From: Streptomyces sp. WZ-12
Lineage (GTDB): Bacteria; Actinomycetota; Actinomycetes; Streptomycetales; Streptomycetaceae
DNA: 64,000 nucleotides
Assembly: GCF_028898845.1 (NCBI RefSeq)
Contig: NZ_CP118575.1
Span: 310,001 to 374,000, forward strand
Direction: 5' to 3'
The position numbers and the translations under genes are program-made. Below are positions 4,749 to 12,125 of this stretch, piece by piece (position 1 is the first letter of the stretch; every line of letters begins with the position of its first letter). The notes below the pieces were generated by a model. That model was not told where the DNA came from, did no database searches, and worked only from the letters and a program-made list of their open reading frames with translations.

Positions 4749-4817
4749 TGAGGTTCCCCCGAGATGCGGAGGATGGTGACAGAGGGTCAGATGGTTCTCA
4801 TGAGAGGAACATCGACC

Positions 4818-5126
4818 ATGGCTGCCCCCAGGAAGTACTCGCTGGAGTTGCGCGAGCGTGCGGTGCGGATGTACCGGACCTCCGACCCGAAGCCCCAGAT
4901 CAAGCGACTGGCTATCGAGCTCGGCGTGCATCCCGAGGCCCTGCGCGGCTGGATCCGGCAGGCCGAGGCCGATGCCGGCGAGCGGGACGACCGGCTGACC
5001 AGCGACGAACGCGTCGAACTCGCCGCGCTTCGCAAGGAGAACGCCCAGCTCAAGCGCGCGAACGAAGTTCTGCGGACGGCCTCGGCTTTTTTCGCGGCGC
5101 AACTCGACCCGACCCGGCCCAGGTGA
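4818..5126 (+). CDS. IS3 type A OrfA (HTH and leucine-zipper protein)
   Basis: This 102-residue protein starts at ATG 4818 behind GAGAGGAAC. An earlier in-frame ATG at 4764 would add 18 residues but lies in the terminal repeat region. It carries an HTH_Tnp_1 domain (KYSLELRERAVRMY..., then LGVHPEALRGWIRQAEAD) followed by a heptad segment (VELAALRKENAQLKRANEVLR). Near the end the zero frame reads GCT TTT TTC, so the canonical -1 slippery heptamer T TTT TTC is present in the correct phase. A slip joins OrfA to OrfB as an OrfAB transposase. OrfA alone is expected to repress or bind the ends. Confidence 0.88.
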   Translation: MAAPRKYSLELRERAVRMYRTSDPKPQIKRLAIELGVHPEALRGWIRQAEADAGERDDRLTSDERVELAALRKENAQLKRANEVLRTASAFFAAQLDPTRPR

Positions 5127-6040
5127 CGGGGCTCCTCGACGAGCACCCTGACCTGGGAGTCGAGTGCGTCCTGCGGGAACTGCACATCGCCTCCTCCACC
5201 TACTACCGCTGGCGCCGCGCCGAGAAGCAGCCGTGCGAGCGGCGGCGTCGCGACGTCGAGCTGACCGAGCGGATCAAGGAGATCCACACCGAGTCCGGCG
5301 GGATCTACGGCTCTCCGCGCGTGCATGCCGTGCTGAAACGCGAGGGCACACGCGTGGGCCGCAAGCGGGTCGAGCGCCTGATGCGCGAGGCCGACCTGGC
5401 GGGCATCAGCCCGCGCCGCACAGGCTTCACGCGCCGGGATCCGAAGGCCACACTCGCCCCGGACCTGGTCAACCGGGACTTCACCGCACCGGCGCCGAAC
5501 CGGCTGTGGGTCACCGACCTGACGATGATCTCGACCGGCGAGGGCCCGCTGTGGCTGTCGGCGATCCGGGACGCGTTCTCCCGCCGGGTGGTGGCCTGGG
5601 AGACCTCCGCCCGCGCGGACGCCGACCTGGTCCTGACCACGCTGGAGTACGCCCTCGCGTCCCGCGAGGTCGAGCCCGGCAAGCTCATCCACCATGCCGA
5701 CCACGGCTGTCAGTACACATCCATCAAGCTCACAACTCGCCTGCTGCGGGCAGGAGTTGACGCGTCCATGGGCTCCGTCGGGGACAGCCACGACAACGCC
5801 CTCGCGGAGAACCTGTGGATGCTGATCAAGACCGAGTGCGTGCGCGGCCGCGTCTTCGCCACACGTGCCGAGGCGAACCTCGCGCTCTTCGAGTACACAG
5901 ACGGCTTCTATAACTCCCGCCGCACCCAGGAACGACTCGGCTTCCCCAGCCCGATCGAATTCGAGGAGAAGTACTACGCCGAGCAGGCAACGGCCGAACG
6001 AGCGAACCTGAAACCCCGTCAACCCCTCCTGACCAGCTGA
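5123..6040 (+). CDS. IS3 type A OrfB (DDE integrase domain)
   Basis: This 305-residue protein starts at GTG 5123, overlapping the OrfA stop as GTGA. The same -1 frame is open back through the T TTT TTC slip site, so an OrfAB fusion of about 407 residues can form. The HTH_21-like segment (GIYGSPRVHAVLKREG) precedes the rve integrase core: WVTDLTMI (first Asp), HHADHGCQYTS (second Asp) and NALAENLWMLIKTE (catalytic Glu). No lesions are visible, so this copy should be active. Confidence 0.9.
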   Translation: MTGLLDEHPDLGVECVLRELHIASSTYYRWRRAEKQPCERRRRDVELTERIKEIHTESGGIYGSPRVHAVLKREGTRVGRKRVERLMREADLAGISPRRTGFTRRDPKATLAPDLVNRDFTAPAPNRLWVTDLTMISTGEGPLWLSAIRDAFSRRVVAWETSARADADLVLTTLEYALASREVEPGKLIHHADHGCQYTSIKLTTRLLRAGVDASMGSVGDSHDNALAENLWMLIKTECVRGRVFATRAEANLALFEYTDGFYNSRRTQERLGFPSPIEFEEKYYAEQATAERANLKPRQPLLTS

Positions 6041-6092
6041 TCAGCGCCTCCCGAACGACGGGGGAACCTCAGAGCGAGAGCCGCGGCCGAAG

Positions 6093-6286
6093 ATGATCGA
6101 CGCGTTCCTGGAGAAGGTCGAGGAGTGGGTCGAGCAGTCGAAGGCAACGATCCGCGCCGATGTGGTCCACGAGAAGCTGGTGAAGATGGGCTACCTCGGC
6201 AGCGCACGCTCGACGAGGCGGGCGGTGAACGCGGCGAAAACGGCCTGGAAGGCAGGCAAGCGCCGCACCTACCGGCCGTGGGTCCC
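6093..6286 (+). pseudogene. istA: istA 5' fragment (IS21 transposase N-terminus)
   Basis: From ATG 6093 it reads MIDAFLEKVEEWVEQS, then RADVVHEKLVKMGYLGSARSTRRAVNAAKTAWKAGKRRTYRPWVP. This is the helix-turn-helix N-terminus of IstA. At 6286 the family reading frame stops abruptly, and what follows (SLNYEMALFY and a stop) belongs to the inserted element. Confidence 0.85.
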
Positions 6287-6313
6287 TTCTCTGAACTACG
6301 AAATGGCCCTGTT

Positions 6314-8827
6314 TTATTGAGATTTAAGATGGTTCTTCGGGCCGGAGCTGGTAGTGATCTGGCGGCCCGCGACGTCGGGGAATGTGGGCATGCCGAGGTT
6401 GACGGCTGCGGTGCGGCTGGCAATGAGGTTGTCGAGCTGTGCGAGTTTGGCGTTCGCCGCGGCCAGGCTGACCTTGAGTCCTTCGGCTTCGCCGGCCCAG
6501 CCTTCGCGTTCGGCTTCGGCGATGCGGGCGAGGAGGTTGTCACGGATGCCCACGAGTCGTGACCGTTGGGCCGGGTCGGCCCGCAGGAGCGGGCATCGGA
6601 TGCAACTGTGCTCGTGAATGCAGCTGGTGCCGTAGGCTCGTCCGCAGTCACCGAGTGCGACTTTGCGGCGTTCGAAGTGCCCGAGGAAATCCTCCCATTC
6701 CTCCTCGGTGGGGCTGCGGTATTCCTCGCTCGGACGTAGTTCCCGGCGGCGGGCGATGAACGCCCGGTGCCCGGTAATAGCCTCCTCGGGATAGACGGCC
6801 TTGTAGCCCATGGTCGTGTTGATGTCGCGGTGGCCCAGAACCAGTTGGGCGATGTGCGGTGGCATCCCGTTCATGACGGCGTCCGTGGTGAAGATTCGCC
6901 GGAAGTCGTGCGGAGCGAAGTGCAGCGGTCTCCCGGTCGTGTCGGTGAACCCGGTGGCGGCGAGGGCGTCCTGCAGGAGGGTGCGGATACCATCGATAGG
7001 GATGGGCCTGTCCTCCAGTCCGATCTTGCGCTGGAACAGCAGGGGCAGGGGCGGGTTCCAGACCTTCTCGTGGTGGTCGTAGGCGATCACGAGGGGGACG
7101 CTGCCGTCGGCGGTGCGGATGCGGCAGATGATCGCGGAGAGCACATCGGCGAGTTCCGGGGAGACGACCAGGAGCCGTTCCTCATCGGTCTTGGAAGGCG
7201 CGATCTGCAGCAACGGGACGAGTTCACCGGTGCTCGGCAGCCGGTATTGGACCAGGCTGTGGTGCGAGATCTCACTCAGCTCCTCGATGCGCACTCCGGT
7301 CATCCGCAGAACCTCAACCGCAGCCCAGCCCCAGAAGGCGTTGCTCTCCTCACGGGCCAGGTTCCGGCGCCGCCCGGTGTCGAGTTCCTCTCCCCACAAG
7401 TGCGGCGAGTGTCGCTTGAGAACCGCGCGTCGGAGCGTCGTGCAGTCGGCGGTGAACACCTCGCCGGGGTGGGTGTGTCCGGCGGCCTCCAAGCGGGCGG
7501 CGGCTGCCTTCCGGTTCCGGTCAACTGCGTCGATCAGCACCGGGAGGACGGGCAGACGTTCGCGGGTCCGCTGATCCATCCGGGCCTTTTGACGGGACTT
7601 CATCTTGCGGTGCTGGACGTCGTCGGCGCGGATCGGGCAAGGGACCGCCCAAGGCCCCCAGCGGGACGGCTCGTCCAGTGCCCACTGAGCGAGGTCGAGA
7701 TAGAAGGCCCGCACTGTCATCAAGGTGTCGGAGGCGGTGGCCCTTTCCACCGTGGTTTCCACGACGTCGCCGTGCTCGTTGGTGGTGCGGACGGTGCGGG
7801 TCTGCAGGCGTCTCTTCCAACTGGCGGCAATGTCGGGAGGAAGCCGGAGCGAGTCGATGCCGGCATGGTGCTTTTCCAGGTCCTTCCAGAACCACAGCGC
7901 CAGCGCGGTCGCCAGGCCGGTCAGCGTGTTGTAGTCGATAGATGGCTGACGTTCCATCAAGTAGTCGACCAGCAGGTCGCGGACGGGACGGCAGGACAGG
8001 TCGTAGCGGTCGACGAGCTGTTCGGCGGTGAGCTGGCCCGGGAAGCGCGTGCTGAACATGCGGACCGAGGTCGGGGCGCCGGCGGGGAAGACGCCGAGGG
8101 AGTGCAGCAGCTGGTAGGAGAACGGGCTGTGCCGGCTGGCCTTGGCCGGTCCGGGGAAGACCTCCCGGCTGGTCTTCAGCAGTTCGAGGCAGTCGCCGGG
8201 GGTGACATCGGCGACCGTGCCGCCCTTGGCCGCCATGATGAGCGCGATCTTCTCGATCGCGGGCAGCACGGTGGAGTCGCCCACCGTGCTCGCCTTCCGC
8301 AGGGCCCGAAGAGAAGCGATGGCCTCGCCGTCGCGGACACGCTCCATTTCGTTCGCGATCCGCAGCGGCGAGGCCGTGGCCATCAGCCAGCCCAGGTCAG
8401 GCCGCAGGACGTCACCGCCGATCAGCTGGACCAGGCCCATGCCGAGGATGCTGAAGATCCGCTCTCCTCGTGGGCCGAGATTGTCGACGCTCTTCAGGTC
8501 GCTGATGAGCCGGGTCCGCCAGTCCACACGTCCGTCGACGCCGACGCCGCTGGCGTCCCACCGTTCCTGCCAGGTGGTGCCGGGCTGCATCTCCAGCCAG
8601 TCGAGCACCTTGAGCAGGGTCAGTTTCCGGTTGCAGCGGGTCTTGGAGTCGTTCCCGAGGAACGGTGGCTTGAGCATCCGGGACACCACGGCGGCCCGGC
8701 TCTGCCGGGTCGCCGGCCAGCTCTTCGGGTTGGTCCGGGGCGGGAACTTCTTCCAGAGGGCGACGGCCTCCGCGCTGAGCTGCCAGGGGCGGGCGGCCAC
8801 CGCCTCGGTGATGGCGCTGGTGGTCAC
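6314..8827 (-). CDS. Large tyrosine recombinase (TnpB-like)
   Basis: The protein is 837 residues if started at GTG 8827, which overlaps the upstream recombinase stop (GTGA); a longer open frame to 9010 only runs through the neighbour. The catalytic domain lies in the second half. GVRIEELSEISHHSL carries Arg I, PHDFRRIF gives H-x-x-R, and LVLGHRDINTTMGYKAVYPEE gives the last His and the nucleophile Tyr. After the catalytic domain comes a cysteine-rich segment (CGRAYGTSCIHEHSCIRCPLLRADP) and a C-terminal coiled coil. Size and operon position match TnpB of Tn554-like elements. All catalytic residues are present, so it looks functional. Confidence 0.82.
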   Translation of the reverse strand: MTTSAITEAVAARPWQLSAEAVALWKKFPPRTNPKSWPATRQSRAAVVSRMLKPPFLGNDSKTRCNRKLTLLKVLDWLEMQPGTTWQERWDASGVGVDGRVDWRTRLISDLKSVDNLGPRGERIFSILGMGLVQLIGGDVLRPDLGWLMATASPLRIANEMERVRDGEAIASLRALRKASTVGDSTVLPAIEKIALIMAAKGGTVADVTPGDCLELLKTSREVFPGPAKASRHSPFSYQLLHSLGVFPAGAPTSVRMFSTRFPGQLTAEQLVDRYDLSCRPVRDLLVDYLMERQPSIDYNTLTGLATALALWFWKDLEKHHAGIDSLRLPPDIAASWKRRLQTRTVRTTNEHGDVVETTVERATASDTLMTVRAFYLDLAQWALDEPSRWGPWAVPCPIRADDVQHRKMKSRQKARMDQRTRERLPVLPVLIDAVDRNRKAAAARLEAAGHTHPGEVFTADCTTLRRAVLKRHSPHLWGEELDTGRRRNLAREESNAFWGWAAVEVLRMTGVRIEELSEISHHSLVQYRLPSTGELVPLLQIAPSKTDEERLLVVSPELADVLSAIICRIRTADGSVPLVIAYDHHEKVWNPPLPLLFQRKIGLEDRPIPIDGIRTLLQDALAATGFTDTTGRPLHFAPHDFRRIFTTDAVMNGMPPHIAQLVLGHRDINTTMGYKAVYPEEAITGHRAFIARRRELRPSEEYRSPTEEEWEDFLGHFERRKVALGDCGRAYGTSCIHEHSCIRCPLLRADPAQRSRLVGIRDNLLARIAEAEREGWAGEAEGLKVSLAAANAKLAQLDNLIASRTAAVNLGMPTFPDVAGRQITTSSGPKNHLKSQ

Positions 8828-10107
8828 GGTCGCCTCCGGCCGAACAGCACGTCCAGGCTCTCGGGCCGGTAGTGCAGAGTCGGCTCCGAGGGCTCCGCCG
8901 GTTCCTCGGCCTGGCGACGGTGGTGAGCCAGGACGCTTTCGATGACGTCCTCGGTGGTGGGCGTGACGTACCGCTGAGTGGTGGATAGACGTGCATGTCC
9001 GAGTACCCATTGGACGTCCGTGATCGGCATCAGCGGGTCACGGGCGAGCCGGTAGGCCGCCGTGTGCCGTAGGTCGTGCAGCGACCAATCCGACCCCAGC
9101 GTGCTGTTCGCGCGGACGAACATCGCTCGCGCGGCATGGTAGTTGAGAGCACGAAACGGCCGTCGCAGCGTCCACCACAGCGGGTCGTCGGGGCCGGTGG
9201 GCACCAGTTCGTGCATCTGCTGCTGGTAGAGCCGCAGCCAGACGAACGCGTCCGGCGAAGCCGGCAGCTGCTGCAGGGCGCGCGAGCCCTTGCGTACCAC
9301 CGTGACCAACTGGCGCCCCGGGTCCGTGCCGGAGCACAGCACCCCGAGCAGCTCGGAAGCCCTGGCCCCGGTGGAGATCCAGAAGGCGACCATGGCCCGG
9401 TCACGGTCCGAGGACAGCCGGGCGAACAGCTCGTTGAACACCGCATCGGGGATCTGACGCGGGATCCGTTGCGGCTGCCGTGGTCGGAACAGTCCTGCCC
9501 GTTGCGGGCGCCATGGCTCCATCGGGTTGTGGTGCGCGTTCACTCGCGGAGTCCTGGCCAGCGGGAACGGGTTGACCAGCGGACCGGTCCCGGCCTCCAG
9601 ATGGTGGGCGTAGAAGCTGCGGAGCACCGTCTCGCTGTGCGCGACCGTCGACGCCGCGTACGTCGTCCCGACCGGCCGCTTCCCGGTGATCGGATTCGTG
9701 CCCCGGGCGACCGGCCGAACAGCCGACGACGAGGTCGATGCCGAACTCCGGTGCGGCCGAGGAGGCTTGGCCGTGATCTGAATCCACCGGGAGAAGTCGC
9801 GGGCCTCGATCCGGGTCGCCTCGTTCCACGGCACCTCGACCGCCCACAAGAAGCGGAACCAGCGCAGCAGGTCCATGCCGTACGAACGCTGAGTCGTCGC
9901 AGGCCGCCCGGCCGCCTGCAGATCCTTCATGTACGCAGCCGCCGCCCCCACCATCGCCCCGGCAGGATCCACCAGACGATACGGCTCCCACGGGTCACCA
10001 CTCTCCACGAGCGCACCCACCCGGGACACCACCAGTGAACCCAAGTCCCTTGAGACATCCTCACGTTCGAGCATGTCAGGGGACGGTAGCCAGCCCGCCT
10101 CCGCCAT
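8824..10107 (-). CDS. Tyrosine recombinase (TnpA-like)
   Basis: This 427-residue site-specific recombinase has a core-binding N-terminal domain (ATTQRSYGMDLLRWFRFLW). The catalytic domain follows: STGARASELLGVL (Arg I), SLHDLRHTAAYRLA (H-x-x-R), and WVLGHARLSTTQRYVTPT (His and Tyr). It is the first gene of the pair, and its stop overlaps the start of the larger recombinase, indicating translational coupling. ATG 10107 is the longest start; ATG 10074 (MLERED) is an alternative. It lies within 50 bases of the element's right border. Confidence 0.85.
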   Translation of the reverse strand: MAEAGWLPSPDMLEREDVSRDLGSLVVSRVGALVESGDPWEPYRLVDPAGAMVGAAAAYMKDLQAAGRPATTQRSYGMDLLRWFRFLWAVEVPWNEATRIEARDFSRWIQITAKPPRPHRSSASTSSSAVRPVARGTNPITGKRPVGTTYAASTVAHSETVLRSFYAHHLEAGTGPLVNPFPLARTPRVNAHHNPMEPWRPQRAGLFRPRQPQRIPRQIPDAVFNELFARLSSDRDRAMVAFWISTGARASELLGVLCSGTDPGRQLVTVVRKGSRALQQLPASPDAFVWLRLYQQQMHELVPTGPDDPLWWTLRRPFRALNYHAARAMFVRANSTLGSDWSLHDLRHTAAYRLARDPLMPITDVQWVLGHARLSTTQRYVTPTTEDVIESVLAHHRRQAEEPAEPSEPTLHYRPESLDVLFGRRRP

Positions 10108-10151
10108 GTCCGAAGAACAAGAAGAGAACCTCCCGTAGTTCAGTCAACACG

Positions 10152-11291
10152 CCAGAGCCGGGCCGATGGCTCCAGTTCGACTGGGGCGAGGGCCCGCGGA
10201 TCAGGGGCCGGCGGACCTGGTTGTTCTGCGCGTGGCTGTCCTGGTCGCGGTTCCGGGTCGTGATCCCGGTCTGGGACTGCACGTTGGGCACGCTGGTGGC
10301 ATGCCTGGACACCACGTTGCGGCGGATCGGCGGGGCACCGACCTACGTCCTGACGGACAACGCGAAGACGGTGACCGTCGAGCACATCGCCGGGATCCCG
10401 GTGCGGCACCCGCAGATGGTCGCCGCGGGCCGGCATTACGGCTGCCAGGTGGTCAGTTGCGTTCCCTACGACCCCGAGTCGAAGGGCGGCGCGGAGGCCA
10501 CGGTCCGCATCGCGAAGGCCGACCTGGTGCCCACCAGCGCGAACCTGCTGGCCGCCTACGACACCTTCGCCGAGCTCGCCGATGCCTGCCTGACCTGGTG
10601 CGATGCAGTGAACTCCCGCCGCCACCGGGCGACCGGACAGATACCCGCCGACCGCCTCGATATCGAACGCACCACCCTGCACATACTGCCCATCGAGCCG
10701 CTCGCGCTCGCGCTGGGCGAGGAACGACTGGTCGGCTCGGACCGCACCATCAGCTTCAACTCGGTGCGTTACTCGACCCCGCCGGGCTATACGGGCGCGA
10801 GGGTGTGGTGCCGGGTGGTCGGCGAGGAACTTTCCATCACCGCCCGCACCAACTCCGGTGACCTGTCGGAGATTTGGCGCCACCAGCTCTCCACTCCGGG
10901 TGCTCCACAGATCATCGACGAGCACTACCCCGACCATCCCGATGGCCGCAGTGTTCACCAGCCGCGGCTGTAGCCCCGCTCGGAAGCGGAGATCGCGTTC
11001 GTGGGCATCGGCTCCGGCGCGGGCCGCTGGCTCAAGGAAGCCGGACCCGCCGGAGCGGTCCGCATCCGCTCCAAGATGGCCCGCGCGGTCGAGCTGGCCA
11101 CCGTCCTGGGCAACGACAGAGTCGACCAGGCCCTCGGCCTGGCGGCCACGGCCGGACGCTTCGCCGACGGCGACCTCCTCTCGATCCTGGGACACATCGC
11201 GGATAGCAAGCCCGCCGGCGAGGTCGTCCGCGCGGACGAGGCCCACTCCGTCCAGAACGGAACCATCGGCTGGCAGGCACTCGGCCGCTGA
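10152..11291 (+). pseudogene. istA: istA 3' part, with a nonsense codon
   Basis: The frame resumes as PEPGRWLQFDWGEGPRI and carries the IstA integrase core: WLFCAWLSWSRFRVVIP, then YVLTDNAKTV, then YDPESKGGAEATVRIAK. At 10971-10973 an in-frame TAG interrupts it. The same frame then continues (PRSEAEIAFVGIGSGAGRWLKEAGP...) to 11291. So istA is dead twice over: by the recombinase insertion and by this stop. Confidence 0.85.
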
Positions 11292-11351: not shown

Positions 11352-12125
11352 ATGAGTTTTCCCAGCGCGCCCGCCCTCCCCGAGGAACTCGACAAGCTCA
11401 TGCGCCGCATGCGGCTGCCCCATATGCGCAAGGCGGCCCCCGATGTCCTGGCCACCGCGCGGGCTCAACGCTGGGACCCCGCCGAGGTGTTGCGGCTGCT
11501 GATAGCCGAAGAGGTCACCGGCCGCGACGCGGCCACCCGCCGCCTGCGGCGGTCCTCGGCGAACTTCCCCACCGGCAAGACCCTGGGCTCCTGGCGGGCC
11601 GAGGACTCCACCATCCCCGAGCCCACCCAGAACTCCCTGATCACCCTGGAATGGATCGGCCGCGCCGAGAACTTGGTGATCGCCGGCCCGAGCGGCACAG
11701 GGAAAAGTCACTTCACCGAGGGACTCGCCCAAGCCGCGATCGAGAAGGACATGAGGGTGTCCTGGTTCACCCTGGAGACCCTCGCTGCCGCGATCGGGAA
11801 GTCGAAGGTCGATGGGTCCACGGCACGGACCGTCGCCCGGATCTGCCGGGCCGATTTGATCGTCATTGATGACATTGGCCTGCTGCCGGTCGGCGAGGAC
11901 GCCGCCGAGGCGTTCTACCGGATCATCGACGCCGCCTACGAGCGTCGCTCCATCGCGGTGACCAGCAACATCCACCCCTCGGGCTTCGACACGATCATGC
12001 CCAAGACCCTCGCAGGGGCGAGCACCGACCGTCTCATGCACCACGCTCACCTCGTGACCACCTCCGGCGACTCACATCGCCTCGCCGAGGCCCTCGCCGG
12101 GAAGGGAGTGGTCCCCTTGAACTGA
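11352..12125 (+). CDS. istB: IstB ATPase of the IS21 element
   Basis: This 257-residue AAA+ helper ATPase has Walker A GPSGTGKSH, Walker B LIVIDDIGLLP and sensor-like VTSNIHPSGFD. The N-terminal LDKLMRRMRLPHMRKAAPDVLATA segment is typical of IstB. Sixty bases separate it from istA. The gene is intact although its transposase partner is not, so it could serve only a related IS21 in trans. Confidence 0.92.
   Translation: MSFPSAPALPEELDKLMRRMRLPHMRKAAPDVLATARAQRWDPAEVLRLLIAEEVTGRDAATRRLRRSSANFPTGKTLGSWRAEDSTIPEPTQNSLITLEWIGRAENLVIAGPSGTGKSHFTEGLAQAAIEKDMRVSWFTLETLAAAIGKSKVDGSTARTVARICRADLIVIDDIGLLPVGEDAAEAFYRIIDAAYERRSIAVTSNIHPSGFDTIMPKTLAGASTDRLMHHAHLVTTSGDSHRLAEALAGKGVVPLN

Follow-up and report, generated by a model that had tools for sequence, protein, structure and literature searches.

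Van Houdt et al. (2012; PMC3414803), in the passages available, described the actinobacterial Tn554-related transposons as carrying one long and one short recombinase, with a subgroup devoid of TnpC, the protein which influences orientation in Tn554. The element analysed here, a two-recombinase unit interrupting the istA gene of an IS21 element of Streptomyces sp. WZ-12, is a member of this class and belongs to its Famint36/41 subgroup without TnpC. It lies in a stretch of 64,000 nucleotides (contig NZ_CP118575.1, positions 310,001 to 374,000; hereafter the window), to which all coordinates refer. As in that subgroup, which is found on actinobacterial plasmids and chromosomes, a short and an abnormally long tyrosine recombinase are encoded side by side in the same direction and TnpC is lacking. 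The assignment follows from homology to the pair on the RHA1 plasmid pRHL2, the TnpB and TnpA of which are 55% and 58% identical, respectively, to those of the window over most of their length. The termini, the core, the empty site and the target are not described in the available passages of PMC3414803 and were read here from the sequence. The element is probably an autonomous, cargo-free tyrosine-recombinase transposon of this class, whose mechanism, as we infer it, would depend on matching at one edge of the core only.

Tn554 and its relatives Tn552-II and Tn6188 resemble the window element in having a small and a large recombinase, in producing no target duplication, in their 6-7-bp core and in a circle which prefers one core (available parts of PMC12486829 and PMC3788773). 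No target duplication is seen here either, since the element is flanked by 6-bp cores which have only 2 bp in common in the window copy. In Tn552-II and the SE elements, the left core is reported to be that of the target and the right core the carried one (PMC12486829, PMC10214605, passages available); with left denoting the tnpA side and right the tnpB side, the arrangement is reversed here, and in contrast to Tn554 the carried core lies at the tnpA side, not at the far side. The window element further differs from Tn554 in the absence of TnpC, in the use of both orientations and in the many targets used by its group (istA, Tn3 transposase, own-type tnpB, Ku and T2SSE genes, among others) instead of one preferred radC site. 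The Tn554 proteins are also smaller than the window pair.

The SE elements, according to the available passages of PMC10214605, likewise possess an ordinary and a large recombinase and carry the core of the left end; in their circle, imperfect inverted repeats of the termini enclose a spacer of 6 bp. The arms and 6-bp cores found here fit such a spacer, although the circle itself is a prediction from the sequence. The SE elements carry an intA-tfp-intB-srap block, whereas only two genes and neither tfp nor srap are present between the ends here; the carried 6 bp return to attR in the SE elements and to the left end here; and the reported SE hosts are Gammaproteobacteria (same passages), while excision of the window element is predicted to leave an empty site. 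The GInts and RIT elements also combine several tyrosine recombinases, and 6-nt staggered cuts are reported for GInts in the available part of PMC5385486, but they have three recombinase-type genes (with ginD in addition in the ginABCD operon of GInts) as against two here.

Borders, genes and terminal arms

The unit at positions 6287-10151 (3,865 bp) contains tnpA and tnpB alone. The istA gene is broken between 6286 and 10152, with CC present at both sides (6285-6286 and 10152-10153), and when rejoined at this shared CC the gene gives RTYRPWVPEPGRWLQFDWGEG; the frame is preserved, the number of codons is unchanged and the protein is RPWVPEPGRW. Across the insertion, the window has CCGTGGGTCCC, the element and CCAGAGCC, the single CC being common to both flanks. 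Twelve istA relatives (L075-L085 and L089; L numbers denote loci), 88-93% identical to the right flank (for L085 the sole part aligned), are uninterrupted at the insertion point and read CCGTGG-ATT-CCC-GAG or close variants. An earlier note, made from the sequence alone, had held that a 3.87-kb unit splits istA and that the empty site could be predicted from the istA family; the twelve relatives supply this site and confirm, exactly to the base, the borders which the note had given, 6287 and 10151. None of these relatives contains the interval in the alignment of IS21 copies, which rules out that it is a normal part of istA.

The features of the element are as follows:
6287..10151, minus strand (tnpA to tnpB), whole element, delimited by the empty site in 12 istA relatives and by the conserved ends
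8824..10107, minus strand, tnpA, tyrosine recombinase of 427 residues (open reading frame, alignment)
6314..8827, minus strand, tnpB, tyrosine recombinase of 837 residues with a GTG start (open reading frame, domain matches)
6287..6298, minus strand, tnpB-side arm TAGTTCAGAGAA (plus strand TTCTCTGAACTA), conserved in relatives
10136..10147, minus strand, tnpA-side arm TTGACTGAACTA (plus strand TAGTTCAGTCAA), conserved in relatives
6291..6300, 10-bp inverted repeat in the version of the earlier note, copy 1
10134..10143, the same 10-bp inverted repeat, copy 2
6281..6286, plus strand, target core GGTCCC, istA's own sequence, codons for W-V-P
10148..10153, plus strand, carried core CACGCC (GGCGTG when read from tnpA to tnpB), foreign to istA, the last two bases being the shared CC

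The open reading frames confirmed two tyrosine recombinases of 427 and 837 residues coupled by a GTGA overlap. Both frames are open and both proteins keep their catalytic residues; in TnpA, all 48 rows of the alignment (the reference in addition to 47 elements, the window sequence thus being counted twice) had R249, K273, H344, R347, H371 and Y380. TnpB consists of a helical N-terminal part (approximately residues 15-278), a core-binding and catalytic part (approximately 279-692, the region covered by the fold matches listed) and a C-terminal Cys/His module (C728, C736, H738, C742 and C745) followed by long helices. Compared with the tnpABC member on pNL1 of Novosphingobium, TnpB has the catalytic end and the C-CxHxHxCxxC module in common (E 9e-5; profile probability 77.5%), and TnpA gave a weak match (E 0.002); these comparisons were made with the pNL1 proteins. 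For the TnpC-like protein of pNL1, no match with an E value under 1.6 was found among the 48 first-table elements, and this protein did not match the TnpB profile. The interpretation of the earlier note, a mobile unit of two tyrosine recombinases with readable borders on the plan of Tn554 but lacking tnpC and cargo, is supported. We also considered a TnpC fused to the C-terminus of TnpB; this was ruled out, since the TnpB of the TnpC-bearing pNL1 relative has the same Cys/His module and its TnpC-like protein remained unmatched.

The perfect 10-bp repeats noticed earlier just inside the borders are present, but they are only the inner part of 12-bp arms. The 10-mer CTGAACTACG occurs at 6291-6300 and, inverted, at 10134-10143, its sole two perfect copies in the 64 kb; with one mismatch allowed, 3 occurrences were found against 2.38 expected by chance. 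The repeat alone therefore proves little, and conservation in relatives was used instead. The arms TTGACTGAACTA and TAGTTCAGAGAA extend the repeat and differ at the outer edge, and a 6-bp core lies outside each of them. In the window, 27 bp separate the tnpB stop from the end of the right arm.

Eighty tnpA-tnpB rows were obtained from 93 loci, and a left-end match was found in 69 of them (two mismatches allowed). Eleven rows had no left end, 12 had a left end but no right candidate, and 48 passed the filter and form the first table. Two of these (L009 and L062), in which the targets of the left and right flanks differ or are inverted, as would be seen after recombination between two copies, were dropped and L065 was added, so that the final table contains 47 elements including the window. 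The first L114 element was lost from the table (two rows shared one key); its cores are the same as those of L121. The consensus ends of the 47 elements are TTGAC(T/C)GAACTA at the tnpA side, approximately 20-130 bp upstream of tnpA, and TAGTTC(A/G)GAGAA downstream of tnpB, and TnpB identity among elements with both ends goes down to 36%. The two arms vary jointly, CTGAACTA occurring with TAGTTCAG, CCGAACTA with TAGTTCGG and CCGGACTA with TAGTCCGG, and matched changes are found on both sides (GGAC/GTCC; GCAC/GTGC, the latter in two elements). Conserved ends were thus found beside homologous pairs, and no set of homologues without borders emerged.

After the rule had been fixed, five of six named Rhodococcus plasmid loci had both ends, neither with more than one mismatch, and the right end was at most 44 bp from the tnpB stop; at the sixth (pREL1), which has a short tnpA, no ends were found. 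Since L171 and L172 represent one insertion, these are four independent elements, three of which, but not that of pBD2, show agreement at core positions 1 and 2. Both ends are present at the pair of pBD2, a plasmid included in the list of PMC3414803 as far as available. The own left end of the pRHL2 element was not found, an IS3 element adjoining there; the pRHL2 copy is 99.9% identical to an R. koreensis copy which has both ends. No description of termini for the actinobacterial Tn554-related class was found in the available text of open-licence papers, and the 3 papers in which the sequences of the ends came up are, by their titles, on other subjects.

The two cores and the probable place of strand exchange

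The two cores of the window have different origins. Read with GGTCCC, istA encodes the conserved W, whereas with the six bases from the tnpA side C-T replaces W-V; the target core is therefore the one at the tnpB side, and that at the tnpA side is foreign. Twenty-three target genes (L046, L069 and L114 included) were read with either core. A conserved residue decided in 11 of them, always for the tnpB-side core, the other 12 read through with either core, and none clearly favoured the tnpA-side core. The deciding features were the W in the window, the invariant Cys of TnpB (L037, L038, L072), RHYG as in the window istA (L041, L114), GGDEF instead of GGDRF (L046), GCGTVHAN common to the otherwise differing L047, L050 and L055, and a stop codon arising with the other core (L122). 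In an element inserted in the variable loop of a tRNA gene (L043), ARAGORN found no tRNA with the element present and one, labelled SeC and looking like Met, when the flanks were joined with either core. This agrees with a spacing of 6 bp but does not tell the two cores apart.

The tnpA-side core is inherited with the element. In genome G079, two 100% identical 5.9-kb copies share exactly 6 bp past the left arm (GACGTG) and 1 bp past the right one. Among 17 pairs with at least 80% DNA identity, which come from few clusters, are not independent and in some cases have a common target gene, the left cores match at five to six of the six bases in all 17 and the right cores in 10. Ten of the 17 pairs are located in different genes or in opposite orientations, as judged from the target reading, and their left cores are identical in eight cases and one base off in two. 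It is this constancy among close pairs which points to inheritance.

The agreement between the left and right cores is graded. At positions 1 to 6, they agree in 39, 31, 25, 17, 10 and 12 of the 47 elements, respectively, the expectation after shuffling being 26.4, 13.4, 16.6, 14.1, 10.1 and 11.8; the counts at positions 1-3 were reached in 0, 0 and 7 of 10,000 shuffles. The same was observed with 34 cluster representatives (29, 21, 16, 10, 9 and 7 versus 17.6, 9.0, 10.5, 9.4, 7.9 and 7.1). In a register control with 48 elements, the pattern was lost at shifts of -2, -1, +1, +2 and +3, while a shift of -3 still gave counts of 32 and 21 at the first two positions, an effect of the GAA in the arm itself and of the GA with which many carried cores start. 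Agreement thus falls with the distance from the tnpB-side arm, as expected if a strand is cut and rejoined there. This suggests that strand exchange takes place at the tnpB-side edge of the core, opposite to the placement reported for Tn554 and the SE elements.

These observations would be accounted for by the following mechanism. TnpA and TnpB, bound to the two 12-bp arms, would bring the ends together in a circle with the site TAGTTCAGAGAA-N6-TTGACTGAACTA, N6 being the tnpA-side core (in the window, TAGTTCAGAGAA-GGCGTG-TTGACTGAACTA). The circle would pair with a weakly palindromic target and be cut at the core edge adjoining the tnpB-side arm, and the strand would be swapped provided that the carried and target cores pair over their first one to three or four bases, the rest being free to differ. 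With such a one-edge exchange, the carried core would end at the tnpA side after each jump and the six bases of the target would stay at the tnpB side. The reverse of the same exchange would restore the target exactly, so that the window istA would return to the clean GTCCCAGAG, and entry would be possible in either orientation without TnpC.

The one-strand model for Tn552-II, in the available part of PMC12486829, places excision and integration on different strands; our data would be explained most simply by the same strand in both. The chances seem evenly balanced that the full scheme holds, namely that a two-protein, TnpC-free tyrosine transposase excises and integrates by the same strand exchange, keeps its own core, needs one to four edge bases, enters in both orientations and leaves no scar. 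If true, it would represent a third way of core handling, in addition to that of phage integrases, which depend on full homology, and that of Tn554 and the SE elements, in which the core is 'brought in'. CTnDOT and Tn916 also have tyrosine recombinases which tolerate mismatched coupling sequences, and CTnDOT needs identity at one core edge only; they differ in being conjugative and in using one integrase with Xis. The one-edge matching rule opens the strand order of two-recombinase transposons to a direct test. A tyrosine transposase of this minimal kind, with two genes and loose targeting, could be of use as a tool.

Several points weigh against this reading, the mutual dependence of the 17 close pairs among them. 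The cores do not match even at position 1 in 8 of the 47 elements, and a search of 382 Streptomyces genomes and of the viral contigs gave no circle junction of the predicted form. The cores were not used to pick the right ends, except for the few set by hand from the target reading (L038, L047, L065 and the second L114 element). Perfect arm pairs were counted in 27 of the 47 elements against a shuffle mean of 10.0, a count biased upwards by the partial choice of right ends by their fit to the left arm; the empty-site readings serve as the independent support for the ends. Finally, the element is present in a single copy in its host genome.

This single copy also agrees with the possibility that the unit was formerly mobile, with real borders, and that the copy in the window, residing in a dead IS21 with no start and with an internal stop, is now fixed. 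We regard this as rather doubtful, since both genes are open, the catalytic residues are kept, the arms are undamaged on either side and Streptomyces sp. NPDC001404 has a TnpB on record with 98% identity; the element may still be active. The mirror image of the Tn554 rule, by which the circle would take the tnpB-side target core and deposit it at the next tnpA side as a record of the previous address, likewise accounts for the observed position of the target core at the tnpB side, and the constant carried core could arise under it from one unseen donor. It is nevertheless improbable: close relatives at different targets should then differ in their left cores, which are the same or one base off, and in L059 and L060, which are identical, the left core of each differs from the right core of the other. 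Least probable of all is the ordinary 'att-brought-in' rule, reported for the Tn554-related Tn552-II and the SE elements (PMC12486829, PMC10214605, in the parts available), which have the same gene order and core length, because it would bring the target core to the tnpA side and leave the core of the previous site at the tnpB side at each jump, contrary to the istA reading in the window, to all 11 decided target genes and to the left cores inherited in 17 of 17 close pairs.

Targets and orientation

The targets are varied, and transposase or recombinase genes make up 17 of the 47, a share given without a background rate for comparison. The joined flanks are in frame with the genes named below. 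The istA genes (called in the window, L041, L114, L115, L121, L122 and L137; L121 had no Pfam match, L137 was below the cut-off and L114 was unscanned) are hit at four places, RPW, KAVHR, RHY and NHLVP. Tn3-type transposase genes were recognized by Pfam DDE_Tnp_Tn3 in L056, L067, L069 and L126 and by eye in L057 and L066. A tnpB of the same family is the target at its CxRC motif in L037, L038 and L072, where the elements are nested in both orientations, and a serine recombinase gene is the target in L163. Ku genes are hit in L044, L049 and, by eye, L065 (L062 was kept among the Pfam queries, its Ku match resting on the left flank), and type II/IV secretion ATPase (T2SSE) genes in L050, L055 and, judged by its sequence, L047. 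GGDEF, GFA, endonuclease VII and NlpC/P60 genes were also found. Ku and type II/IV secretion ATPase genes recur as targets from one genome of the genus to another.

Insertions of either orientation use an identical set of six bases at four sites. The opposed insertions are those in istA at RPW (the window; L121 of R. oxybenzonivorans) and at NHLVP (L115; L122), in tnpB (L037 and L072; L038) and in the T2SSE gene (L050; L047 and L055). The target logo, based on 41 of 48 sites, is weak and palindromic, with a purine at -6 and G at core position 1 (0.41 and 0.40 bits over background) in one half and C at core position 6 and at +6 (0.17 and 0.19 bits) in the other. A palindromic target fits entry in either orientation.

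Distribution, cargo and host genome

A TnpB match at E 0.001 was found in 210 of 392 Streptomyces genomes, the weaker matches possibly being other tyrosine recombinases, and at E 1e-60 or better in 93 of 392. At E 1e-100, 28 of 394 genomes of the class, a set which includes genomes of the same genus, had a match. In the protein search, 7,990 candidates were scored, of which 3,840 were listed at E 0.001. The class is thus common, yet in the available passages of PMC3414803 it is described by genes alone; the sequence now allows its ends, its core, its empty sites and its choice of target to be recognized, and with readable ends the cargo can be delimited.

Absence of cargo, as claimed in the earlier note, applies to the window element and to 9 of the other 47 first-table elements. 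In the remaining 38, tnpB and the right end are 0.4-3.1 kb apart; L114, which is among the 38, became cargo-free after correction of its right end. Ten of the 48 elements including the window are cargo-free (at most 116 bp after tnpB). The minimal form therefore occurs regularly as a variant and can be compared to an insertion sequence which uses tyrosine recombinases. In the elements examined, the cargo, as judged by eye, includes genes for methyltransferases, phosphotransferase-like proteins, a kinase and a regulator. The cargo of L050 includes a 315-residue frame which resembles, by eye, a restriction-type nuclease domain.

The surroundings of the element in the window are as follows:
6072..6286, plus strand, 5' piece of istA, its start removed by an IS3 element
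10152..11291, plus strand, 3' piece of istA, with an in-frame TAG at 10971-10973
11352..12125, plus strand, open reading frame in the place of istB, which we take from the family to be this IS21 helper ATPase

An IS3-type element (4764-6071; two overlapping frames, type assigned by eye) ends inside istA and has removed its first part. As the two-recombinase element is itself inserted in istA, three mobile elements are stacked here. The in-frame TAG is not present in the istA relative L075. The host IS21 copy is dead apart from the insertion, its start being cut off and its frame containing a stop.

Two other TnpB relatives (approximately 42% identity) are encoded in the host genome, one on contig C1 within an open frame of 873 residues (C1:4334957-4336789) and one on contig C2 in pieces (C2:91635-93943). 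A different IS21 (72% identical DNA) occurs there in several copies, at four places on C1 and at both ends of C2; one copy is apparently split over the two ends of C2, which suggests that this 378-kb replicon is circular.

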